From Marvania coccoides (Eukaryota > Chlorophyta > Trebouxiophyceae > Chlorellales > Chlorellaceae): DNA of 64,000 nt. The stretch covers positions 1,488,001 to 1,552,000 of the forward strand of contig OY978100.1 of the NCBI GenBank assembly GCA_963854735.1, read 5' to 3'. This document shows positions 2,733 to 63,085 of this stretch, in pieces. How positions within the stretch are numbered: position 1 is the first letter of the stretch; the number at the start of each line of letters is the position of its first letter. Both the position numbers and the translations under genes were made by a program. Under the pieces are notes generated by a model that had not been told where the DNA came from, searched no databases, and saw nothing but the letters and a program-made list of their open reading frames with translations.

Positions 2733-3896
2733 ATGGATCAACACATTTATCTGAACCATCCACGTTACGAACTCGTGCGTTAGTTCCGAGCATTTCACAT
2801 TTCCCCTCCCTTTTCCAACAAACTTTTCATTTCCTTGTGCTGCAGGTGGGTCTCATCGGCAGGGGCTCCCACGGCGTCGTCATGGCGGCGAAAGATAAAG
2901 CACGAAATGATACTTACGTCGCCCTGAAGTTTTTGACTCTTACGCCGTCGGTGAGAAACAGAGTTCAACAAAATCGCCCTCCTTTCTCTGAAGAGAGTTT
3001 GGCATTATTACCACTCACCCCGACATCCTCTTCCCCTGCAGCTGCTATCGAAGTCAAAGTACGCTGAGCGCGAAATAGTCAACCAGTTCAAGCTTCGGCA
3101 TCCCCACGTCATTCAACTAGAAGAGATATTCGTCACCGACACCCACCTCATTCTCGTCATGGAGTACGCCAACAAGGGCGACCTCCACCGCTTCGTCAAG
3201 ATGCTACCGGAGGGACTGCCTGAGAGCGATGCCCGCAGCCTCTTCCAGCAGCTGATGGTGGCCGTAGATTTTTGCCACCGCATGGGGGTGGCCAGTCGAG
3301 ACATCAAGCTGGGAAATGTGTTGCTGGGGGGAAACGGGCAGCGCCCCCTGGTGAAATTAAGCGACTTTGGCTTTTCCAAAGACGAACACAACCAGTCTGC
3401 AGCAAAAACGGCCTTGGGGACGCTGGATTATATCGCCCCCGAGGTGGCAATCCGCAACGCGTGGTCCGACTCGTATGACGCAAAAAAAGCAGACATTTGG
3501 TCGTGCGGCGTACTGCTGTACACGATGATTACTGGCGAGTATCCTTTTCGTAGACCAGATGACTTGAGCACTGGGCCAGGGCGCATGGGCAAGATGCTGG
3601 GCCGTATTGCCAGCGGGGAGTACACCGTGCCGGAGCGGGTGTCAGCAGAGTGCAAAGAGCTGCTGGAAGGGATGCTGGTTGTGGACGTTGCACAGCGGTT
3701 TAGCATGAAGGAAATATATGAGAGCCGGTGGTTCAAAGAGGGCATTAAACCTGAGGTGCTGACGTACAACGACCAGGTGATTGCGTTTTATGCCGAAAAC
3801 CCGACCATGAACGACGACACCGTCCAAAAGATTAGGAACATTCTTGCGCAAGCCCAAAAAAAGGCAGCTGCTCCTTGCGATGCTGGAACCGAATGA
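2733..3896 (+). CDS. SnRK2-like Ser/Thr protein kinase
   Basis: Exons are 2733-2774, 2846-2950 and 3042-3896, all phase 0, giving 333 residues. The 14-residue first exon ends in RYEL and joins VGLIGRGSHGVV to complete the glycine loop, which supports this short exon. Other landmarks are VALKFL (catalytic Lys), VMEYANKGDL (hinge), SRDIKLGN (catalytic loop), SDFGFSK and the substrate loop GTLDYIAPEV with WSCGV. The kinase fills most of the protein, with a short C-terminal tail after subdomain XI. Similarity is closest to plant SNF1-related kinase 2 (osmotic-stress and ABA signalling), but the usual HRD is SRD here and no acidic C-terminal box is obvious. The subfamily is inferred; a CAMK-type kinase of another group is possible. 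Confidence 0.85.
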
Positions 3897-4024
3897 AATT
3901 AACTTGGTGCATCTTGCAAGTAATTCGGTGAGGTTGCATCCTCGCCACCATAGCATAATTAAAGTAAACCGTGATGTATGTATCATGGCCTGACATTTAA
4001 TTTGTGGTTGGACCTAAGAAGTAG

Positions 4025-4106
4025 TATGTATGTATGTATGAATGTATGTATGTATGTATGTATGTATGTATGTATGTATGTATGTATGTATGTATGTATG
4101 TATGTA
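4025..4106. repeat. (TATG)n microsatellite
   Basis: About 20 copies of TATG with one AATG interruption early in the tract. Confidence 0.95.
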
Positions 4107-4126
4107 TTCATACACAAAAAACAAAA

Positions 4127-4570: not shown

Positions 4571-7500
4571 ATGTTGAATAACCTGCGGCGGAGGCTCCGC
4601 GGGGCTGGTGCAGAGCCTATGCCGGACCAAGAGGTAGGTGTTGGTGTTGCCGCAGCTGCTGTTGAAAGTGCTCAGGGTCTTTACCGTATTTGCCCGAGGC
4701 TGAAACCTACTCTGTGTTGCGTTGCAGGGGCTCGATGGCGCGATGGGCGCAGCTGGCGCCGTTGACAACGAGCTGGCGGAGCGGAAGCGGCCCACGCTGG
4801 TCGACACCGGCAAACACACCGGCCAGTCGCGAGTGCAGTACCGCGGGTACTTCATTCCGCTGCACCTGATCACAAAAGGCGCGTGGTAATCTCCTTACCC
4901 CGTATAGAACCCACCATTTCATTCTTTACAAGGGTTAAAATTTTCTTACGAATTTGGAAAATTCTCGCCCATGCAGATTTTTTCATCTCCATGGTGCAGT
5001 TGGACACCTACCTGATCGTGCTGATCGTGGCAGCCGTATACCTCTTCTTCTTCTTCTTTTGGTCCATCATTTGGTACCTCATCGTGCGGTATTACCCCTC
5101 CTGCGTCTACGGCGCCACCACCTACATAGAATCCCTCATCTTCGCCACAGTCACCCAAATGACCATCGGCTACGGCAACTCGGGTCCCAAAGCATGCTGG
5201 GCGGCCGGCTGGCTGATCATCATTCAGTCGATAATCGGCGTTCTGCTGGAGGCGGTGGTGCTGGGTATCGTGTTTGCGCGCATTTCGCACCCCCACCAGC
5301 GCTCCCGCTCCATCTTCATGTCGGATAAGGCCATTGTGGCGCGGCGTGACGGCATTCTGAAGTTCATGTTTAGGGTGGCGGACATCAGAAACACCCAGGT
5401 GGTTGAGCCAAAAGTCAAAGCGTGAGTGGATCTAGTGGGGTCGCACATGCATTTGCGAATAATGCTGTGAATAGCGTTGTTTAATTGTAGCGCCAGAGGA
5501 CGGTTTTACTGATTTATATGAAAAAGGCTCGTTTCGTTGTTTTTTAGTATCTGAAAATGTCATGCATAATTTTTTTTTGTTTTTTTTGCACAGGTATCTG
5601 TACACGTGGGGCCAGGGGCGCATCACCGCGGAGGGGGAGCGCATCCCGGTGCGCGTTGAGCCCCTGGACGTTGACTACATCGACGGCATGCTGCTGCTGC
5701 CGCTGATCATCGAGCATACAATAGACGAGCGCTCCCCGCTGTGCGGGCACACCCACACCTCTTTGGTGTCGCTCAACGCCGAGATCGTGGTCACATTTGA
5801 GGGCACGACCGAGGTGCGGCGCGTTCTGTCCATTGCCTGACGCTCTTTGGCTACGTCAATAATTCACAGGAGACACCATTCTAAACTGGATATGGGTATT
5901 TTTCTTCTTCTTTCTATCTTTGCAGATGGGCAACCCTTTCATGGCGCGGCGGTCCTACACCCCCGAGGAGATCTTCTGGGGCCACCAATTCGTCAACATT
6001 GTTGACCTGCCCCACGACGCCGCCGGCCACTACGAGATTGACCTGGAGAATTTCCACAAGGTGGAGCGGCAAGAAAAGATGCCTAACCTGTACCCCATGC
6101 AACTCAGCCAGCTGGTGGTCAACCGCGCCAAGCGCACGGTGCCCTACCCGCTGCTGGGGGAAAACACGCTGGTGCTGTCAGACGTGCTGTGCTTGGCGCC
6201 CAACGAGGACGGGCTGCTGACGCTGTACTGCCGCGTGGGGGACACGTACCCCAACCAGATGCTGGAAATCACCGCCAAGATGCTACTGTACCGGTGGAAG
6301 AATGTGGCGGCGGTGGAGGCGGTGCCAGGCCCAGCGCCAGAGGGAGAGGCGTTTGAGCTGTTCGCGCTCCACGTAAGCGACTAAACTCATTCTTCTTCTG
6401 GGCCCTTGTCTTTCAAAATACGATTTTTGTCTTTCTGTTTATTGGCGAGCTCAGTGTGCCGACATTGTTTAACCTCCTGCCGTCATTTTTATTTTTATTT
6501 TGCAGTGCGGGTATGATACGGGCGAAGACCGCCTGCACCTGCGTCTCCCGGTCCTGCTTGAGCACGTAATCGACGTGGACTCCCCGCTGTCAAACTGGCG
6601 GGAGCCGGGCGGCTTCCAAGCCGACGAACACTCTGAGATCATTGTAGTGGTGAGCTTTTAGCTAATAGCAAAGTATTCATTAATTTCTTCTGCATTAGTC
6701 TTCTCTTTCCTTCTTTCTTTCTTTCTTAAATGTTTCCCCCCCTATCTTTGCTTCCCAACACATTCCTCCCCCCCCAAAAACCCCAAAACAGATCAACGCC
6801 TACATGAACGTCAACAACAACAACGTTCTCCGCCAGCGCACCTACACCTGCAACCACCACGTGCGCTTCGGCTACGGCTTCACCCCCATCGTCAAACACC
6901 CCGGGCTGGCTAGGGACGGCAAGCCGAGGGTGCGGTGGCAACACTTCCACGCTGTGCAGCCAGCTGAGGGGATGGAGGACTACCCCGCCCTGCAGGTGAA
7001 TGCCAGCGGGGACGGCGGCATGACGGCGCCCGAGTCGCACGCCAACCTGCGCACTGTGATCGGCAACTCTCGATCAACAGCCAGCCTGGGCGGTGTGGCC
7101 ATTCAGCAGCAGCAAGCAAACATGGGCTACGGCGGCATGCTGTCCAACATGGAGCGCAACGACTTCACCGTCCTGCCGATGGACCTGCAGCGGTGGGTTT
7201 AGTTGAAACTTTGCAACATTTTATGTTTACTTTTTTCGTTTTCTATTTTGGTTGACTTTTCTCATCCTTTTTAAATAAAATGTGTGTGTGCAGGTACGCT
7301 GCTGCGGTCGGGGGCGACGCTTCTCAGGTGACCGGCTCGCCCAGGCCCCCAACAGTCCTCTTCCCCGACATCATTCTCAAGTAAGCAGATCATTTTTTTC
7401 CTTTTTTCCTTTTTCAATTCCCCAATTCTTCTCTTCCACATATTAACAATATGATGCGTGGTTCTGCTTGTGTAGCTATGCCGAGGACACCACGGATGCG

Positions 7501-8142
7501 TCAAACTCTCTGCCCCATCCCGCTGCCCTGCACCCCGCCCTCCCAGGCATCGACAGGTTTCGGCTCAGCGACGCAGCAGAGGAAATGAACGACTACACCG
7601 TGGCAGCAGCAGATCTTTCGCGCTACTCCGCAGCCATCGCGCGTGCAGACACGCTGCCACGCAGCCTGCGCGCGCCGTCGAGCTTCACCCCGCTGCCTGC
7701 GGGGATGCGAAAGTCAACCCCGCCGAAAACAAGCCCCAAGCATGACGAGGCTGCTGCCGCTGCCTCCCAGCAGCAGGAACATGCCGATGACCGACAGCAT
7801 GTGGCATTCGTCTCTGGTCCAATCGAGGAGAAAATTTCGGAGGGCAGCGACGAGAGGGACGGGCCGCTGGCTGGTGTGCACCCCATTGAGCGCACTATGT
7901 CTCACGCGTTCACCGGCGGGGACAACAGCGACGAGGAGGGGGCAGGGCCTATGCACTTTGCGTGAGTTGCGATTTTATTTATATACGTGTTTGTCTTTCT
8001 TCTGTGGAGCTAAGCAGCCGATTTCTTTCTTTCATGGTTCAGGACGTCAAAAGCTCGCTTGGGGGCCAAGTCTTTGAAGGAGATATCCACACTGTTCAAC
8101 ACGGAGCCTGAAGATGACGATTTGACGCCGCCGCCTTCATGA
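4571..8142 (+). CDS. Inward-rectifier-type K+ channel with two tandem cytoplasmic IRK domains
   Basis: Ten exons: 4571-4633, 4728-4885, 4933-5421, 5594-5813, 5926-6372, 6506-6649, 6792-7192, 7294-7380, 7476-7961 and 8043-8142; 864 residues. Residues 75-98 resemble the slide helix, 99-125 form TM1, TIGYG at 151-155 is the K+ selectivity filter, and TM2 spans about 162-188. A first Kir cytoplasmic domain runs from about 195 to 360 (RDGILKFMFRVADIRNTQ, EIVVTFEGTTE, EEIFWGHQF). A second, diverged copy runs from about 390 to 565 (EDGLLTLYCRVGD, GYDTGEDRLHLRLPVLLEHVID, VRFGYGFTPI). There is only one pore module. The last 300 residues are low complexity. The 47-nt intron 2, ending in AAG, is required to keep frame. 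Expected role: membrane K+ conductance gated through the cytoplasmic domain. Confidence 0.88.
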
Positions 8143-9900: not shown

Positions 9901-11616
9901 ATGAAGTTCGGCCTCGCCAACTCCACACGGGCCCCTGCCCAGCAGCTGGGGTCTATTTCTGGCCCGCGCGTTGCCCACACAGTCTCCCATAAGCGCCACT
10001 GCGTGCAGCGCACCGCGACTGCTTCCGCTTCTGGCTCATCGAGGCTTTTGGCTCCGGCATCGCACTTGCAAGCGTCCCAGGCCGCGCTGCAGCAGCTGCA
10101 AGCAAACAAGGGCGTAAACCGTGAGTAAAATTCATTTGGCTCAATTCATCGCCGCACAATATCGCTCATCTTGTCATCTTACCTGAGCCACTCTTTTTTT
10201 TTATCTCATTTTTAAACCCCATTCCACCCGTTTTCCCACACACCAGGGTACGCGCTCGAGAAGAAGAGCAGCATCATCGCCATCGGACTCACCATCCACA
10301 ACGCCCCCGTCGAGCTGCGCGAGAAGCTGGCCGTGCCAGAGGCCGAGTGGCCCCGCGCCATCCAGGAGCTGTGCAGCTACCCCCACATTGAGGAGGCGGC
10401 GGTGCTTTCCACCTGCAACCGCATGGAAATCTACCTCGTGGGCCTGTCGTTCCACCGCGGCGTGCGCGAGGTGGAGGAGTGGATGTCCCGCGCGTCTGGC
10501 GTCCCCCTGGAGGAGCTCCGCCCCCACCTCTTCCTGCTGCGCGACCGCGACGCCACCTCCCACCTGCTGCGCGTGTCGGGCGGCCTCGACTCGCTGGTGA
10601 TGGGCGAGGGCCAGATCCTGGCGCAGGTGAAGCAGGTGCACAAGGTGGGGCAGAATTCGCCCGGCTTTGGCCGCCACCTCAACGGTCTCTTCAAGCAGGC
10701 GGTCACCGCGGGCAAGCGCGTCCGCGCCGAGACCTCCATCTCCTCTGGCGCCGTCTCTGTGTCCTCCGCCGCGGCCGAGCTCGCGCAGCTCAAGCTGCCC
10801 ACCCACTCCTTTGCCGACGCCCGCATCTGCATCATCGGCGCCGGCAAGATGTCGAGGCTGCTGGTCAAGCACCTCCACTCCAAGGGCTGTAACCGCGTCA
10901 CAGTGCTCAACCGCTCGCTGCCCCGCGCCGAGGCGCTGGCCGAAGAGTTCCCCGACGTCGAGTTCGAGATCAGGCTCATGCCCGACCTGATGGCCTGCGT
11001 TGAGGAGTCTGACGTCATTTTCGCCGCCTCGGGATCTGAGGAGCTGCTGGTGCACGCCGAGGACATTGCCGGCATGGCTCCCGCCCCGGAAGTGGTGGGC
11101 GGCGTGCGGAGGTTCATCGACATCTCTGTGCCCCGCAACATCGCCCCCGACATCACTCCCGAGTCAGCGGGTGCTATTGTGTACAACGTGGACGACTTGA
11201 AGGAGGTGGTGGCTGCCAACAAGGAAGAACGCGCCAAGGCAGCGGCGGAGGCTGAGATCCTGCTGGTGGAGGAGCAGCTGGCGTTTGAGGCGTGGCGGGA
11301 CTCGCTGGAGACGGTACCCACCATCAAGGCGCTGCGCGGCAAGGCCGAAACCATCCGATCGGGCGAGTTGGAAAAGGCGCTGAACAAGCTGGGCGAGGGG
11401 CTGACCAACAAGCAGAAGAAGGCGGTGGAGGAGCTCAGCAAGAGCATCGTCAACAAGCTGCTGCACGGCCCCATGACCGCGCTGCGCTGCGATTCGTCCG
11501 ACCCCTCCGCGGTCACCCAGACGCTGCAGAATATGGACGCCCTGGAGCGCATGTTTGAGCTGGCAGAGGCCATCGAGCACGACAGGTTGGCGGCGGCATC
11601 AGTCAGCAAGCAGTAA
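9901..11616 (+). CDS. HEMA: Glutamyl-tRNA reductase, plastid
   Basis: Exons 9901-10120 and 10247-11616 give 529 residues. The enzyme reduces glutamyl-tRNA(Glu) to glutamate-1-semialdehyde with NADPH, the first committed step of tetrapyrrole and chlorophyll synthesis in the plastid. The first exon encodes a basic, Ser/Ala-rich transit peptide. The catalytic domain shows LSTCNRMEIYLVG with the active-site Cys, and SGGLDSLVMGEGQILAQVK. The NADPH-binding domain follows (IIGAGKMSRLL, LNRSLPRAEALAEEF), then the long C-terminal dimerisation helix region. The intron falls between transit peptide and mature domain. In plants this enzyme is controlled by light, heme and the FLU protein; no such sites were identified here. 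Identification is secure. Confidence 0.97.
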
Positions 11617-20624: not shown

Positions 20625-22256
20625 TTAATTTTTTCTCTTGGGCAGCCCTTTTGCCGCCGCTTTCCCGGCCTTTGGCAGCTTTGGCAGCGCATCAAAATTC
20701 TGCTCCCGCTGCGCCTTTTGCGCCGCCAGCGTGGCGTTCAGCCGCCCCGCGTAGTCGCACATCCGCCGCATGATGATGGCCTCCAGCGGGGACAGCGTTT
20801 TGGCCGTGGGCGGCGGGTAGTAAAACTTGAGGCGCTCCCCGTCCAGCGCTCCCTGCATCGCCTTCACCTCCTCTCGAGGCATCTCCCGTAGGTAGTCCAG
20901 CGCCGCGCGGAATGTGGGCACCTCCACGATCCACCCCTCCAGCCCCGCGTTCGGCTCGAGCTCCCCTGGCGGCTGCGGCTGCAGCGCTTCTTCAGCAGAC
21001 AGCGGCAGCTCGCGCCCCGACTTCGTCAAGTTGAAGAACACCGCGATGGACGCGTAGTTCACCTCCCCAGCCAACGGCAGCGCCGCCCAGGGCGGTCCGA
21101 AGAACACAGGGATACAGCCAGACAGCACCGCCGCTGGGAGCGCCCTCGTGGCTTGCGAACCGTAGGGCAGCACGGCGCAGAAGATCGAGCGCTGCATCGC
21201 GCGCAGGGACTCCTCTTGCGGGGGGTCCGTCGCGCAGCTCACGCTGAGGTCGCTGGCCTTAGAGGTGCCCAGCTCCGCCAGCATTGCCGCCAGCTGGCGC
21301 CGCCCCAGCAAGGAGGGCTCTCCCGCTAAAGAGGCGCCGTGTTTCACCTCCCTGGGCAACAAAGCCGCCGCTTCCGCCGACTCCGCGGGGCATCGCCCGC
21401 GGAAGAAGAAGAAAGTGGGGCGCAGCGCCCCCAGCGCCGACGCCTGCAAGTCCACTCCCGTCGTGACCACCAGGGGCACCAGCAGCGAGTCGCCGTGCGC
21501 CGCGCGGTCGCGGTCGTTGTCACAGAACACCGCGCGCTCGGACGCGATGAAGAACGACCGCTTCAGCCGCGCGCAGGTGTCCATTAACCCGCCGGGAGCG
21601 CCGCCCGCCGTCGGGCGCGACAGCACCAGCCTCCGCCCCGCCGTCGCCCGAAACTGCTTCATCTGCATCACCCCGTCCACCATCAGCTGCGAAATCCACG
21701 TTCCAACCTCGTTAAAAGGGTTGAAGGGCGGGGCGGCAGCGCTGGTATTGCGGCGAGCTAAATGCCACGTGGACTCGTACCACATGGCGTAGCAGTGCGA
21801 GTCCACAAAGACGAGGTCCGCGTCGTTGATGTTCTTGGTGCGGTGCGCTGTGCGGCTGATGGCGTCGGCTATCCAGTGGCCCGAGGCATGTTGAGCGGCC
21901 CAGTGCGGGGTGCGGTGGAGGCCGTCTACGCCCTCACCAGGGATGTCAAACGGCCAGGCGTTTGCTATGCTGCACTGCGGGATGTTCAGGCCCGGCGCCA
22001 GGTCCCTGGAGGGGTCCACGATGAAAATTTTGCAGGGGGCGGTGTGCGGTTCTGGGACTGCCGGCACGGAGTCCCACTGGGCCGCCCTGCGCAGCCTAGG
22101 TATTGTGGTGGGAGGAGGGTCTAACGGTGCGGTTGAGGTGCGGAACAGAAAGAGGGCTGCGCGAAAAATAGCTGCGAGATGTGCAGAGGGAGATAAAGAT
22201 TAGGTGCGGGGTTTGTGACGGGGGTGCGGTGGGATGCATAGATCGCGTTTGATCAT
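20625..22256 (-). CDS. Exostosin-like (GT47) glycosyltransferase
   Basis: The main exon (22171-20625) encodes a GT47-type protein. It starts near KIFIVDPSRDLAPGL and carries ADLVFVDSHCYAMW, LVPLVVTTGVD, RPTFFFFRGRC and the donor-binding region SIFCAVLPYGSQATRALPAAVLSGCIPVFFG. Such enzymes transfer sugars to cell-wall or glycoprotein glycans in the Golgi. The 5' end is uncertain because no ATG occurs in frame in the main exon. A candidate 37-nt first exon (22256-22220) joins through a 48-nt intron to place IFRAALFLF as a short signal anchor, giving 527 residues, but its donor (GTCACA) is weak. The catalytic family is well supported; acceptor and product cannot be predicted. Confidence 0.78.
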
Positions 22257-26458: not shown

Positions 26459-26984
26459 ATTGGCTAAAATTAAGTTTAGGGGCAATTTTAAGGATTTTTA
26501 AAATCAATATTTGAATTCCGGAACCAAAAAGGGGAGAAAATCCCTGACAGGGCTAACTTCCAGGTCAAGAGGCCTCTTGATTTTAATTGAAAATGTAAGA
26601 AAACAAGGACATCCGGTAACTCGCCGTTTTTTGCCTCTAAATGTGCGAAGACGGGTAGGGATTTTTCCAGCAGACGGTGGAAATATTCGAAATACGAAAC
26701 ACTCTCTTCTTGTGATGTCGGTGACGGATGTCAGAGCTCTCTTTGGTTCCGCAGTTATATGCTGGTGATATACACCCCGATTTATATTTCTAGAAATGCG
26801 TCGGGGTGCAGGAACAGAACGGTCACCGGGTGAGCTGGCAAGCAAACAACTCACGCCATTTCCAATGGCATTTACAACATTTTTTTTTAACAATTCAAGA
26901 GAAATTCATCTGCCTTAGCTAGGTCCGAAAGCGCCGGCCTTGGCCCTCTCCCAGAAAATTTTGATCAGTTCGAATTTCGGGAAA
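26459..26984. promoter_or_regulatory. Divergent spacer, LEA-like (-) and VDE-related (+)
   Basis: About 525 bp between start codons; both promoters are expected here. No motif recognised. Confidence 0.35.
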
Positions 26985-29027
26985 ATGTTTACAGAGGCAG
27001 CGCTGGCCTCTTTGAGTCCCACGCCAGATCTACATCGCGAGAAAAAATCAGCACCCCATCGGCGCAGGGCGCCCTCCAGAGGCCCTGCCCCCGTCCCTCC
27101 AACACATCACCGACTGCATATCCCCCGCCACCTTCAAACAGCCACCACCGCAGCGAGCACCCTCGGCGCCAGCCCCACACCATCCTCTCCGCACCTCTCT
27201 AGCGCCCCCCTCTTCCGTAAATCCCCCATTCCTTGGCGCACAGCCCTGAGGGTGACGTTGCCGCTCTTCGTACTCATCGCCACCGGCCTCCTGCTACCCT
27301 TCATCCTCGGCCCTGATCCCAAAACCACCCCGAGGTCACTAACAAGAACTCCTGCGGCGCAAGGTGGACCCGGCTCTGGCGGCTCAGGCGGTGCAGTGCG
27401 CATTGCGGTAATAGCGCCCTTCGACTCCCCCAGCACGCTGGGGCCAACGTGGGGGGAGGTGCTGGAGCACATTGGCGCGCGGATGACGTGGACGGAGCCA
27501 GGGGTGCAGCTCCGCGCCGTGGACGTCGCCTCTCTTGCTGCTGGGGACAATGTTTTTGAAGGCGACGACATCGTGCTTGCGATGGGCGTAAACGAGGCTG
27601 GCTCCGCCGCTGCGGTAGCTCAGGCTGTGGGAGACATCTCCACCTTTGTTTCGCTCGGTGGTACCCCTGATTTACGGTCGCTGGCGCGCCTGGCAGGGGC
27701 CTCTGTGCCGCCCAAGGCTGGCGACGGCGGGGGCGGCCCTCTCGAGGCGCTATGGGAAGCGCTTTCAGCCTCAGCGCGCCTGGAAAAGCAGCGTGCGCAA
27801 GTGGTGGCCACCGTAGAGGAGATGTACGATCGCCGCACCTCTGATGACCTTCTTTTCAGCCTCCTAGTGTTGGTTAACGAAGTGGTCCGCCCTGTGGCAG
27901 CGGTGTCCAACTCCACGAAGCGGGCGGACGCCGGGCTGGACGCCGTGACGTGCATGGTCTCCAACTGCGGCAAGGAAATGTTCAATTGCTTTGCAAAGGA
28001 TGCCACGTGTCGTGCCGCCCTCGACTGCATGAACGGCTGCAGTTTCAACGACCAGGTGTGCTCCTACCGCTGCATCGCGTCTTACGAGTCGCCGGCGCTG
28101 GAGAAGTTCAGTTTGTGCATCATCCAGAAGCACAACTGCCTGGGGCTGAGCGCTGAGATCCCAGAGGTGGGCGCAGCATGAGCACTGGATTTTACAATGT
28201 CATTTATAAATATATAAATATATAAATATAAATATAAATATAAATATATAAATATAAATATAATTTACATGCGGCTAAAATAAACATATTAACTTGAGGT
28301 TTTTTCTTCTTTCCAGGGCCCCAATCCCGAGCCCATGACCACTTTCAGAGGCCAGCCCCTGACCCATGAAGTGAGCGATGGACTTTTTGTGGGGTGGCTC
28401 GATGGAGCACAGGCCGCCATCGACCGGACCAGCATGCAGCTCGAGCCGCACTCTTGGCGCATATTTGCAGGCAAGATTTTTACGACGAATTTCAAAGCCT
28501 CCTACAACCAGGGAGAATCATTCGTCGGGTTGATTAATACATGGATTTCACATAATGCAGGCAAGAACCCCGCTTTTGATTTCTTCCCCTGCCAGTTCCA
28601 GCTGTTCTACCCCGGGCGCGCCAAAAACAGCATGTGGTACCAGCCCGTGTTCAAGGTCATCACCATCGACGGCCGCTCGGTGTGGCGGCAGCGCCTCTAC
28701 CGCGTGCGAAAAGACGCCACGCCCGGGCGCTTCACGCTCTCAGTACTTGATAACGGGGTCACGTCCCTTGAAAAGTGGTCGATTTTGGACTGCGATGATG
28801 CCCTGGAATGGTGCATATTTTACTACAGAGGCGCGGCAGCAGCGGCTGGCATGTCGTACACCGGGGCTGTGCTGGGCAGCAGGACGGGGGACTGGCCAAC
28901 GGACCCTCAGGCGTTGAGGCGGATCGAGGGCGTGCTGGATGGCGCAGGCATCAAGATGTGGGAGTTGAGCACTGTGAATAATGACGATTGCGTCGGGGCG
29001 CCTCTGGGGCGCATTGGGCCGCAGTAG
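26985..29027 (+). CDS. Violaxanthin de-epoxidase-related protein (VDR-like)
   Basis: Exons 26985-28166, 28317-28470 and 28561-29027 give 600 residues. The N-terminus is basic and Pro/Ser-rich (plastid targeting likely), with one membrane span near residue 85-110 (LRVTLPLFVLIATGLLLPFI). A VDE-type cysteine-rich segment follows (MVSNCGKEMFNC, CMNGCSFNDQVCSYRC, QKHNCLG). Then comes a lipocalin-like part: GKNPAFDFFPCQFQLFYPGR, WYQPVFKVITIDGRSVWR, VLDNGVTSLEKWSI and EWCIFYYRGAA. True VDE de-epoxidises violaxanthin in the thylakoid lumen; VDR paralogues are of unknown activity. The longer N-terminal region makes VDR more likely than VDE. The second intron is GC-AG; if it is retained, the frame stays open for 30 extra residues. 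The ATG at 26985 is preferred to an upstream in-frame TTG. Confidence 0.82.
28204..28265. repeat. AT-rich simple repeat (AAATAT-type)
   Basis: Lies within intron 1 of the VDE-related gene. Confidence 0.9.
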
Positions 29028-36925: not shown

Positions 36926-39727
36926 ATGACGCACGCTGCCGCGCCGATCTACAGAGTGAGTTATCGTGCGCAATTGGAAAATTAACGGTTTTAGTCACAT
37001 TACCAAATTGGGTTCCATACCATTTTGGCGTTGCCGACGGTTCATCATTTTTTTCTAAATTTTACTGCCGCCGCATACCTTATATTTTAATTGCCTCACC
37101 TCTTTTTCCTCCTTCCTTGTTTTTCTAGGATGTTGTATTGGTCGGCGGGGGCCATGCCAACGTGCAAGTCCTGCGCCGCTTCGGCATGCAGCCTATGCCT
37201 GGCGTGCGGCTCACCCTGGTTACGCCTGACGTGCAAACGCCTTACAGGCAAGAAAAAATATTGCACAAGTGCCAAATGCTCGCATTTTAATCTCAAGTAC
37301 TCTTAAAAAATCTTGAACGACCAGAAAAATTGCTTATATTTCGCTCTCTCACTCCCCCAATTATTATTATATTTGCACAGCGGCATGCTGCCTGGCTTCG
37401 TTTCGGGCTTCTACTCTTACGATGACTGCCACATCGACCTGGTCCGCTTGGCGCGCTTTGCCAATGCCCGGGTAGTACGAGCAGAGGCCTGCGGCCTTGA
37501 CCTCTCTGCACAAGAAGTGCTCCTCTCCGGACCGCGCCCGCCGCTGCCCTACGACGTGCTAGCGCTCAACATCGGCATCACCCCCGCAGCCTCGAGTGTC
37601 CCTGGCGCTGCTGAGCACACCATCCCGGTGAAGCCCATCTCTGCATTCGCAGCCAAGTTGGAAAAAGTTATCGCAGCTGCACGCAAAGAAAGCACGACAG
37701 GAAAGGAGTTTAAGGTGGCGGTGGTGGGCGGCGGGCCCAGCGGCGTGGAGCTGGCGTGCGCCGTCAACCACCGGCTCACAGCGGAGTGCGGTAGCGGCGT
37801 GAAAGTGACGATCATTTCTCGCGGGAATATTTTATCAGAACTGGCACCATACGCGCGGCGGTCGTTCCTCACGCTGCTGCGTGAGCGAGGGATCGATTTA
37901 ATCGAGTCTCAGGGAGGGGTAGTTTCGGTCTCGCGCTCTGCTCTCCATGTAGCAACCACCGGGGCAGGTGCTGCCACTGCCGACGGTGGAATTGAAGAGG
38001 TGGGCTTTGACGCGTGTCTGTGGGCCACGCAGGCAGGAGCGCCGGGGTGGCTGTCACGCACAGGGCTGCCCTCCGATGAGCGCGGGTTTATGCTGGTGAA
38101 TGAGTGTCTGCAGAGCGATGGAGGGCCGCCCAACGTGTTTGGCGTGGGGGACGCCGCCAGCAGCCGCCTCCACCCGCGACCGAAGGCAGGCGTGTATGCA
38201 GTCAGAGCGGTGAGAGGGTGGCATAGTTGAAAATCATTTGTAACTATATGTGCGCTTGCGCCTTTTTTGTCAATGCTTGAGACGTTAAAAAATTCCTACT
38301 TTGATCGAAAACAGGGCATGCCGCTAGCAGACAACATTGCGCGTTGGCTGGAAGGTGCCCCGCTGCGGCCCTTCATCCCCCAGAGCACCCACCTGAACCT
38401 CATTTCTGCTGGCGACAAGTATGCCGTGGCGGTGAAAGGCAGCTGGTTTGGGGTGCAAGGAGGGCCGCTGTGGACGTGGAAAGACTGGATAGACCGCAAA
38501 TTCATGGCCAAATTCGGGTCAGAGCTGACATTCGACGGCAGCATGAGCGCAGGCATGGCAGCTCCTTTGATCAGCAGCGGCGGTGGCGGCAGCAACACAG
38601 AGGCGGCAGCTCTGGCTACTGCGGCGCAGATGCGGTGCAACGGGTGCGGCTCCAAGGTGGGCGCGGGTCCGCTGAGCCGCGCGTTGAGGCGGCTGCGAAA
38701 ACACCAACAACAGGGCGCCAAAGCGCAACAACCGCTGCTGCCTGTCGTTGTGGGGCTGGGGGAGCCCGACGACGCCGCGGTGCTGGGCCCCCCACCTCTG
38801 GGGCATGTCACCGTGCACAGCATTGACTTTTTCAGGGCTCCTCTCGACCTGGATCCCTTCACCTTTGGTTCCATCGCCGCCGTCCATGCCCTCAGCGACT
38901 GCTGGGCCATGGGGGCCGCCCCTGCCGCCTCCATGGCGCTCGCAGTGCTCCCTTTTGCGTCTGAGAAGAAAGTAGAAGCAGACCTGTACGCGCTGCTGGC
39001 TGGGGCAGAGTGGGTGCTGCGGCGAGAGGGCTGCGCTTTGGTCGGCGGACACTCCTCAGAAGGGGCGGAGATGGCCATGGGGCTGAGCGTGCAGGGCGTG
39101 GTGCGCCCCGAACACATTCTGCGCAAGGGGGGGCTGGCGCCAGGGCAGGTTTTGATTCTCACAAAGGCGGTGGGCACGGGGATGGTGCTGGCGGCTGCCA
39201 TGCGGGGCCAGGCAGCAGGGAGGTGGTGGGCGGCAGCAGTGGACAGCATGCTGGTGAGTAATGCAGCGGCGTCGGAGGTGCTACGTGCGCACAAAGCTGC
39301 TGCATGCACCGATGTAACCGGCTTTGGTCTGTTGGGACACCTCGCTGAAATGGCGCAAGCCAGCGGGATGGGAGTGGAGGTAGACGTTGCCCGCGTCCCG
39401 TTTCTACCGGGAGCTGCGGAGTGCGTCGCAGCTGGCGTGAGAAGCTCGCTGCACGACGGGAATTCAGCGGCAGCAGCAGCGGTGGTTGTGGGCGCAGAAT
39501 CGGCGACCCAGGCGTCGGCATGGCCGCTGCTAGTGGACCCCCAAACCTCGGGGGGGCTGCTGGGGGCTGTGCCTGCTGAGCTGGCTGACGCGTGCGTGGC
39601 GGAGCTGCGGAGGCGGGGGTGCGGGGAGGCGGCGGTAGTGGGCAGGGTGGTGGGCCCTGCAGCGGAGAATGTTGAGCGCCTGATAACATTGAAGCTATGC
39701 GCAATGGGGAATGGGAGCGATCAATAA
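36926..39727 (+). CDS. NADH-dehydrogenase-like / selenophosphate synthetase fusion protein
   Basis: Exons 36926-36955, 37129-37247, 37381-38209 and 38315-39727 give 796 residues. The N-terminal half is a pyridine nucleotide-disulfide oxidoreductase: VVLVGGGHANVQVLRRFG (FAD), GMLPGF, VAVVGGGPSGVELACAV (NADH), FGVGDAAS. The C-terminal half is SelD: RCNGCGSKVGAG, PDDAAVLGPPPLGHVTVHSID, FTFGSIAAVHALSDCWAMGA, LVGGHSSEGAEMAMGLSV, TDVTGFGLLGHLAEMA and DPQTSGGLL. SelD makes selenophosphate from selenide and ATP for selenocysteine and selenouridine synthesis. This fusion is known from cyanobacteria and algae. A 10-codon first exon (MTHAAAPIYR) fits in phase. Intron 2 is GC-AG. The usual Sec/Cys nucleophile is replaced by the CNGCGSK context typical of fusion forms. 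Confidence 0.92.
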
Positions 39728-39980
39728 TGGGTCCTCTGCTTCTTTCCTTCTTCACCTAACTCGACTAACTCATTGTTTTTTTATCTGTGTTTTTTCATTT
39801 CAAAAAAATGCAAATAAGCATATTAATCATTCAAATTCTTGACGTTTGAGATAGCATGGAGAGCAGCGCATAGAGAGCGGGGAGGATCCATACTTGATCA
39901 CACCCACCAAGAATTGAAATAAAGTTGAAAGAACGCTGGATTTTTTCTCGCCTTAAGAGCTAGAGAGGTGGTGGATCGGC

Positions 39981-42900
39981 ATGGCGTATCAGGCCTTCGA
40001 GGACAGCACCCTGCGCAAGGTGTTCGCGGTGGCCTTGACAGCGTCTCAAATCGATCCCACAGCCAACCCTCCCGTGGTGCACCTTGGCGAGCTTGAACAG
40101 GTGAGAAATACCCACCCATTTCACCGTTTTCTGTCCCGATCAGACCCCCGAGCCAACCTCCCTTGGTCGCCTCCTCCAAACATAATAATAATTCAGGAGC
40201 TCCGCGCTGAGGCCAGCAGCCCTGATGCCCCGCTGCTGCTCTCCTCGGAGACCGCCGAGCGCGCGCTGATGGCGCGCCTCAGCAGCCCTCCTCCCACCTA
40301 CCCCCAGTGGCCCGTGCACTATCTGCAGGGGTGCTACGCTCGGGCCCAAGAAGAGTCCCGCAGCGCCGGCATGCTGAAAGACCCTGCAGACCGGCAGCAT
40401 TTCATCGACGCCCTGACCCTGGCGCGGCAACTGGCAGTGTCATACGCTGGGTTCACCATCACCGCCGGAATGTTTCCGCAGCCCCCGTTGGCAGAGCAGC
40501 GGGGGGCGCTGCAGCTGCTGGACTCGCTCTACGCCTCTGTGGCGTCGTCTGGGGGCGGATTTCGAGCCCCAGTGGTCACCGGCACCCAGCCGCTGATCCC
40601 ATCGGGTGTCAGCGCCGCCACTGAGGTGGTTCCCATGCCCCAAACTTTTCTTTTTGATTTTGCAACTCGCCACGCTGAAGAGGGCCTAGACGAGGTCGTG
40701 CAGGCGATGGCGCGGTCGCTGATGGTGCGCCTGGCGGGAGTCTCGCTACTGGGCGACTTTGGCCCACCGCTATCAGCTCTGGAGTGCATCGCCGCGTGCA
40801 AACCTGCGGCAGCGGCGCTGGTGCGGCTGCCGGAGTGGCTGCCGCGCGCTGCAGCCGACGGGCGCGCCGTGGAGTTTCAGACGGTGCTGGGCCCTGCGTT
40901 TGGCATCTCCGCCATCCCTGACATCACCGCGAATCCGCTGCTGCAGGGCGGTCGCCTCCCTGACGTTGCCGCTCAGTGCTTCTCTGACCTCTCTCGGCCC
41001 ACCACGGTGCACTCCGCCATCGTCTCCATCCACGCCGCCATGGGACAGCTCCACTCGCAGTTGCACCGCGTGCTGATGGCGCTTCTGCGGGGCGGCGGCG
41101 ACGCCCGAGAGGCCGTGGTCAACTGGCTGGCCGCCGCGGTGCGCACCAACCATGAGCGCATCAAAATGCAGCCCGACCGGAAGAAGGCGGCCACCGAGGG
41201 GTTTGCGTTGAACGTGGGCGCGGTGGCGCTGAAGCTGTGCGAGCCGTTTGTAGATCCCGAGACAGGCAAGGCTTGGCCGCGACTGGACGCGCGCTACGCG
41301 TCGGACCCCGCCGCGCGGGGGCGCTGCTTTGAGGACGACACCCGGCTGGCGGCCACCTCTGAAAAAGTGGCGGCCTGGCTCAGCGAGACCGAAGGAAACC
41401 ACAGCGGAGCTGGAGCAGCAGCAGCACTGCAGTATCACTTCATCTGCGAGAGCTTCTTCCTGACGGCGCAGACGCTGCGGCTGGGGTTTGGCAAGGCCAT
41501 GGACCTGTGCCAGACCATGGCGCGACAGGCGACCGCCCTGGAGGAGGACGCAGAGGCTGTGCCGCCGGAACAGGCGCCCAGATACCGCGCTTTGGCGCAG
41601 CGGCTCAAGGGCGCTGCGGTGGCCATGGAGGCGTGCTACTCGTACGAGCCCCTCCTGAACGACACCCTGGCCTTCTACCGCCTTGTGGCTGCGTACTTGG
41701 TGCGGCTGGCAGCGCCGAAGGTGGCAGTAGGGGGGCAGCCCGAGCTGCCGCTGAAAGTGCCGGCGCCCATGGAGTTTGCGTCCTTGCCGGTGAGCCATCC
41801 AGTTATTAAATTTTTGCAGTAGTGATATTAAAAAATCATCAAAACATCTTTCTTTTTTCGTACTGTAATTTCTTTCTTCCACTTTCCCCCTCTGTACCAA
41901 CATTATTTGACTTTCATTCATTGCCCAGGAGTTCTTCGTCGACGACCTGTGCTCTGCGCTAAGCTGGGTCGGGCGGGTGCGCCCCGAGCTGGTCACCCCC
42001 CGCCGCATGGAGCTCTTCATGCTCTTTTTCACGGTGTTCCTAGGCAGCCCAGACCACATCAACAACCCGTACCTACGGGGCCGCATCGTGGAGGCGCTGT
42101 CCTCCTACATGCCGGAGGAGGAAGAGGATGACGCCAGCGGCAGGGCGGCGTGGCGGTCCCGCCCCCGCGGCCGCGGCGGCAGGGCAGCTGACGAGGTGGC
42201 CACGCTGTTTGAGGTGCACCCGCTGGTGGTGGGCCACATGGTGCGGTCGCTGATACTGCTGTACGTAGACATCGAGCGCACAGGGCGCAGCGCAGCGTTT
42301 TACGAAAAGTTCAACATGCGGTACCACATCGGCGAGATTCTGTCCTACCTGTGGCGCCTGCCGCAGCACCGCGCCGCGTGGCGCCGCGTGGCGGAGACCG
42401 ACCCCCGGCTGTACATCCGCTTTGTCAACTTTATGATGACTGACAGCCAGCACCTGCTGCAGGAGGCGCTGGACAAGATCCCGGAGGTGCAAGAGATCGA
42501 GCGGGCGCAGGAGGACGAGGCGGGGTGGATGGCGCGGCCGCGCAGGGAGCGCGCCGAAATGGAGAGCAATTTGGACAGCCACCGTCGCTCCATTAAAAAC
42601 TCGTTTGCGCTGGCGGAGATCTACCTGAAGACCATGAATTTCACCACAGAAGACCAGGCGGTGGCGTCGCGGTTCTTTGACTTACAGGTGAGAACCAAGT
42701 TATTTATTTTTTAAAGTATGGGGATAATCTCGATTTTTGTTATATTTTACCTGTGGTGATTTTCGTCTTATTTTTTGCCACTGCAGGTGCGTGACCGGCA
42801 GGCCCGCATCCTCAACTTCTTCCTGCGCTACCTCACCGTGCCCTCCGAGCGACGAAAGCTCAAGCTGAAGGACCCTGAGCGCTATGGGTGGCGCCCCAAG

Positions 42901-61444: not shown

Positions 61445-63085
<1,641 letters not shown>

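Follow-up and report, generated by a model that had tools for sequence, protein, structure and literature searches.

A gene in Marvania coccoides almost certainly encodes a tandem-domain Kir subunit, in which one pore is predicted to be followed by two cytoplasmic domains of the IRK_C type. This combination of a single pore with two consecutive Kir cytoplasmic domains in one polypeptide had been put forward in a first-pass annotation of the window (the whole stretch of 64,000 nucleotides analysed here, part of an assembly of 22.46 Mb in 15 contigs), and is borne out by Pfam, which matches the IRK module once and IRK_C twice. To our knowledge, each Kir subunit so far described has one cytoplasmic domain. 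Searches of an open-access library found no description of tandem cytoplasmic domains in Kir channels, nor any experimental description of a green-algal tandem K+ channel. The protein records themselves are public, and only the doubled layout seems undescribed. Few ion channels have been studied as well as the Kir family, of which this is an old and conserved variant, and green algae, many of them of economic use, gain a K+ channel type with two cytoplasmic domains. Two inward rectifier potassium channels are counted in Picochlorum, with no comment on their layout in that passage (PMC11092101).

Structure of the gene

The splice model places the whole coding gene at 4571..8142 on the forward strand, on which all the parts described below also lie, with ten exons, 847 aa and a stop codon at 8140-8142. 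The extent proposed earlier, 4571..7192, holds for exons 1-7, beyond which the gene continues through exons 8-10 to 8142. Eight of the nine introns are modelled as GT-AG and one as GC-AG. Exon 1 (4571..4633, residues 1-21) runs from an ATG at 4571 to a GTAGGT donor, and exon 2 (4728..4878, residues 22-71) carries a Kir-like N-terminal segment (LVDTGKHTGQSRVQY), a block also found in the homologues. Exon 3 (4977..5421), to which the Pfam IRK match belongs, contains both membrane helices, the selectivity filter and the start of domain 1. The remaining exons are modelled at 5594-5813 (exon 4), 5926..6372 (exon 5), 6506-6649 and 6792-7192 (exons 6 and 7), and 7294-7380, 7476-7961 and 8043-8142 (exons 8, 9 and 10). 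All six motifs quoted in the first-pass annotation are located in this spliced frame.

Intron 2 (4879..4976, donor GCGCGT) is probably of the GC-AG type, a reading taken from comparison with the homologues, because P0001 and P0003 are uninterrupted at this place, with IPLHLLTH or IPLHLITK joined directly to DFF. A GT-AG intron at 4886-4932 was dropped, as it adds 17 residues that P0001 and P0003 do not have there; the model with this GT-AG intron and its 17 extra residues served as the full-length query in the Pfam, structure-chain and homologue searches.

In exon 5 (residues 294-442) a single frame reads through 45 residues at the end of domain 1, the entire linker and 74 residues at the start of domain 2. 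The boundary between the domains is crossed without interruption, and therefore they do not belong to two neighbouring genes, which had been a concern about treating this as a single transcript. An artefact of the gene model, whereby two adjacent genes or a broken copy were taken for one, is extremely improbable: no stop occurs in exon 5 where the boundary is crossed, the layout is repeated in 66/69 proteins, and the source name of P0057, as we interpret that label, reads like an ORF from an assembled transcript.

Domain composition of the protein

The predicted protein has the features by which membership of the Kir family is recognised, namely the IRK two-helix module (PF01007, 44.9 bits against a cut-off of 22.7), a filter of the T-I/V-G-Y/F-G form (TIGYG, residues 134-138, 5162..5176) and IRK_C (PF17655). 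IRK_C matches two stretches, each above the Pfam cut-off, and the second region reaches 44.7 bits (cut-off 22.5) when queried alone. Hydropathy gives only two hydrophobic membrane segments, at residues 72-110 and 143-176, so that, as suggested earlier, no membrane module accompanies the second copy. A TPK or two-pore K+ channel was ruled out by the single pore module seen both by Pfam and in the hydropathy profile; plant KCO3, a member of the TPK family, has been called 'Kir-like' (PMC8619664). A single cytoplasmic domain is the usual layout, and no formal criterion for a Kir channel, and the window protein departs from it in having two. Hence it is a Kir variant rather than an ordinary member, and the layout varies on the Kir theme without amounting to a new kind of channel.

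With borders set by profiles built in this analysis, cytoplasmic domain 1 comprises residues 179-338 (5297..6060, with introns 3 and 4 inside), contains the better of the two IRK_C stretches seen by Pfam and scores 284 bits with our own HMM. It is followed by a linker, residues 339-368 (VERQEKMPNLYPMQLSQLVVNRAKRTVPYP, 6061..6150), and by cytoplasmic domain 2, residues 369-547 (6151..6962, with introns 5 and 6 inside). The poorly conserved C-terminal tail, residues 548-847 (6963..8139), is encoded partly by exons 8-10 and is probably disordered. Aligned with each other over 173 columns, the two domains are 28% identical (pairwise E = 7e-9), their alignment scores 17 standard deviations above 2,000 shuffles, and a profile-profile comparison gives E = 1.2e-38 over 164 columns. 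On these alignments the two domains are homologues.

Distribution and conservation of the doubled layout

Both domains are found in 66 of 69 proteins, comprising that of the window and 68 homologues. The profiles for domains 1 and 2 had been built from the same proteins that they first counted, and this count was repeated with an independent profile made without tandem proteins, from 17 Kir domains of animal, bacterial and single-CTD proteins. The three proteins without both are P0060, which is a fragment, the insect Kir P0067, and P0068, a Kir of bacterial type. The count of 66 used preset domain borders, and these alone would limit each of the 52 single-domain Kir comparators to one region; a border-free recount gives 67/69, adding P0060, which contains the end of domain 1 and a complete domain 2, and finds a repeated domain in 0/52 comparators, some of which are among the 17 domains of the independent profile. 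A third protein search returned 16 further proteins. The independent profile finds both domains in 12 of them, with or without borders, and profiles made from the tandem proteins themselves find both in 13. Eight of these third-search proteins (P0122-P0129), being of equal length with nearly equal scores, are probably near-copies. When 20 tandem proteins were submitted individually to Pfam, two IRK_C matches were returned for 16; in P0120, P0122, P0130 and P0131 Pfam detects only one and the second region is found by our own profiles, so domain 2 has drifted strongly in these four.

The holders of the tandem, drawn from among the matches listed, include Nannochloris and Coccomyxa in the Trebouxiophyceae, Tetradesmus and Haematococcus in the Chlorophyceae, and members of the Pseudoscourfieldiophyceae, a class that falls outside the core chlorophytes in the taxonomy used. 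The closest homologue among the matches listed, at 70% identity, is from Nannochloris. The same tandem layout, for which the first-pass annotation had proposed searching green-algal proteomes, is thus present in three classes of Chlorophyta, and on the evidence of these proteins it is the mark of a conserved chlorophyte family and not a local oddity. Tandem Kir proteins may also occur outside the Chlorophyta, as the protein searches depend on shared 5-residue words and score a candidate list of limited size. The source names of the homologues, which include hypothetical protein, E set domain-containing protein, inward rectifier and IRK1B, the last in Auxenochlorella, make no mention of the doubling. 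No relative was found among viral contigs with a 62-row alignment as the query, nor among phage records with P0065, and a viral origin was rejected.

Conservation differs between the parts of the protein. Median identity to the window protein is 69% for domain 1 (64 of 66 homologues scored), 57% for the linker (65/66), 53% for domain 2 (65/66) and 48% for the membrane part (56/66), and falls to 25% for the C-terminal tail, for which only 13/66 could be scored. The alignment of 62 rows (A1) holds 62 of the 68 matches, leaving out P0016, P0037, P0040, P0047, P0067 and P0068; residue counts were made over 67 rows, omitting P0067 and P0068, and gaps were not counted. The filter has T in 60/67 rows and Y in 62/67, the remainder being gaps except for one S. 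Spacing between the domains is nearly constant: from the FH motif with which domain 1 ends to the opening strand of domain 2 it measures 37 residues in 52/67 rows and 38 in 8/67.

Comparison with single-domain channels

A second Kir gene of M. coccoides, on contig C8, has four modelled coding exons and encodes 400 aa with one IRK_C, providing a natural control for the tandem channel. It and its relatives P0069-P0102, those named being from green algae, share the Kir pore and IRK_C with the tandem proteins. The C8 protein and the 51 matches of its own search have one CTD each, and the six of them placed in the domain tree form a separate group (100/100).

The best match among solved structures is the animal channel Kir3.2/GIRK2 (PDB 9mh8, 3sya), aligned in one stretch from the slide helix to IRK_C (E = 5.4e-43). 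The parts shared with the window protein are the slide helix, the two membrane helices, the filter, the TM2-CTD linker and IRK_C, the linker reading QPKKR in Kir3.2 and HPHQR in the window. The solved Kir3.2 chains match the window protein once, as far as the end of domain 1; beyond that point the algal subunit has another IRK_C and a long tail. Domain 2 queried alone also finds Kir3.2 cytoplasmic chains, with E about 1e-9. The pore and CTD of KirBac (PDB 1xl4, 1p7b) match the window protein as well, but KirBac has one CTD.

Bacterial genomes sampled from three phyla were also surveyed. IRK_C is present in 16/398, 53/292 and 91/282 of them (160/972 overall), and an adjacent pair of IRK_C matches occurs in none of the 972, in a survey that misses a second domain if it is strongly diverged or severed at a contig end. 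Two matches on one contig are seen only in G633 and G672, where they lie more than one megabase apart. Kir frames of 700-1,100 aa from the myxococcal group were considered as candidate tandems, and each of the six that were read contains one IRK_C-type region. The one of them scanned against Pfam, at L020:657-2789 (+), is a fusion of a different type, where LtrA (PF06772, 226.8 bits) precedes IRK_C (95.4 bits), such that a bacterial Kir with its pore and one IRK_C lies behind another membrane domain. By eye, L019, L021, L022 and L024 resemble L020 in having an N-terminal segment of the HRPxLH...WLEL/WLEI type.

Origin of the second domain

A tree was made of 53 domains, to which 18 tandem proteins contributed, chosen from the 79 (66 plus 13) recognised by our own profiles. 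The 18 first domains form one group (support 95/88) and the 18 second domains another (99/98), which argues that the tandem layout arose once, a conclusion that is well supported by these sequences. A branch supported at 97/94 sets domains 1 and 2 together apart from animal, bacterial and single-domain algal Kir domains. With the root placed among these other Kir domains, the tree points to internal duplication of the domain as the most likely route to the tandem. If inheritance has been vertical, the tandem would have originated before the split between the core chlorophytes and the Pseudoscourfieldiophyceae.

The first-pass annotation had left the choice between duplication and partial gene fusion open; duplication is favoured by the 97/94 branch, and fusion is permitted by topology tests. 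In AU tests, placing domain 2 with the single-domain algal, bacterial or animal sets gave p values of 0.138, 0.087 and 0.156, and as none of these partners is rejected, acquisition of domain 2 by fusion with another Kir-type gene is possible. Such a fusion, which would be compatible with every reading of the mechanism discussed below, nevertheless seems unlikely, as the best tree unites the two domains. Intron positions differ between domain 1 and domain 2, a mismatch that fits an old event of either type, be it duplication or fusion.

Acidic sites, rectification and lipid binding

Residue numbers of the Kir2.1 rings were transferred to the algal domains through motifs on the alignments, and the sites so assigned are presumed to be equivalent. 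The cytoplasmic pore of Kir2.1 has an upper ring of E224 and E299 and a lower ring of F254, D255 and D259 (PMC4145359). In domain 1, the E299 site is E or D in 65/66 rows and the E224 site is acidic in 45/65; the loop of the lower ring is shortened, with one acid retained at residue 250 (D/E in 61/65). In domain 2, the E224 site is acidic in 57/67 rows, the D259 site is acidic in 58/67 and the F254 site is Y or F in 53/62. On these alignments the upper acidic ring is retained by domain 1, and the lower ring is retained by domain 2 only in part, because the D255 site there is acidic in 21/62 rows and basic in 19/62, while the E299 site is acidic in 23/67.

The site in TM2 that controls rectification is E163 in the window protein, and is D or E in 47/62 rows. 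An acidic residue at this position is at most suggestive of inward rectification, the strength of which probably varies, since the site is N in 12/62 rows. The basic residues of the lipid (PIP2) site in the TM2-CTD linker presumably correspond to three positions, of which the third is R in 62/62 rows, the first is K in 33/62 or H in 15/62, and the second is Q in 40/62 and basic in only 3/62. The basic pair of this site is thus retained only in part.

Proposed architecture and gating

In Kir channels, four subunits form one K+ pore, and block by internal Mg2+ and polyamines favours the entry of K+. Extending this knowledge of the family, four algal subunits would surround one K+ pore, blocked from the inside by Mg2+ and polyamines. 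A tetramer with eight cytoplasmic domains, perhaps in a second ring or stacked cap, had been suggested in the first-pass annotation and is plausible. The four first domains would form the usual ring below the membrane, in which the upper acidic ring and the G-loop gate would lie. From the four second domains another ring would be built, coaxial with the first and below it, thereby lengthening the cytoplasmic pore. Such a ring would contribute its own acidic sites and a surface where binding of ligands or partners could tighten the first ring or relax it. That the second domains do form a stacked fourfold ring is a tentative proposal. It is with similar reserve that we suggest a two-storey Kir in chlorophyte algae, with eight IRK_C domains per pore in two rings that partly divide the acidic sites between them, the second ring tuning rectification and gating. 

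The N-terminal strand of Kir channels helps to hold the cytoplasmic ring together, and domain 2 has no such strand of its own. This absence, together with that of a membrane linker, is consistent with domain 2 being a peripheral regulatory module in each subunit, binding a ligand, lipid or partner and forming no ring. The same reading gains from the greater divergence of domain 2 relative to domain 1 (53% against 69% median identity), from its mostly non-acidic D255 and E299 sites, and from the failure of Pfam to recognise it in P0120, P0122, P0130 and P0131. By contrast, a linker of nearly fixed length and the retained E224 and D259 sites fit better with an ordered coaxial position. A peripheral module is accordingly a possibility to be taken seriously, if one of which we are doubtful; the stacked ring is narrowly preferred because the acidic sites are partly divided between the domains and the length of the linker is nearly fixed. 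Domain 2 is about as conserved as the membrane part (53% against 48% median identity), and its acidic sites could have been retained for folding alone.

A third arrangement is suggested by BK (Slo1), in which tandem RCK1-RCK2 domains form a joint gating ring of eight domains per tetramer. BK thus resembles the algal protein in that a cytoplasmic domain is duplicated within each subunit of a K+ channel, but the RCK fold is unrelated to IRK_C and BK has a voltage sensor. By this precedent both domains of each subunit could build one joint gating ring, and the sequence implies eight domains per channel if the channel is a tetramer; however, the usual ring beneath the pore is expected to be made by domain 1, and a joint ring seems improbable.

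The stacked ring remains the preferred arrangement, and the explanation as a whole, namely a tandem Kir channel with a stacked second ring taking part in gating and derived from one ancient duplication, is one that we find nearly as easy to believe as to doubt. If true, the two-storey channel would be a gating architecture not known for Kir, with a counterpart in BK and its duplicated RCK domains. A natural two-domain variant also permits one to ask directly about the function of the cytoplasmic domain: to what extent rectification depends on the cytoplasmic pore and its acidic rings, and whether signals can reach the gate from a second ring.

Genomic neighbourhood

Several single reading frames with Pfam matches neighbour the Kir gene in the window. 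Upstream lies a protein kinase frame at 2955-3893 (+), and between it and the Kir gene is a (GTAT)21 tandem repeat at 4024-4107. Downstream are frames for glutamyl-tRNA reductase at 10216-11613 (+), an exostosin of family GT47 at 20628-22199 (-), a VDE lipocalin domain at 26919-28178 (+), an AIR synthase type protein at 38231-39724 (+), a Ufd2 core at 39957-41819 (+) and an ArfGap at 61754-63082 (+).
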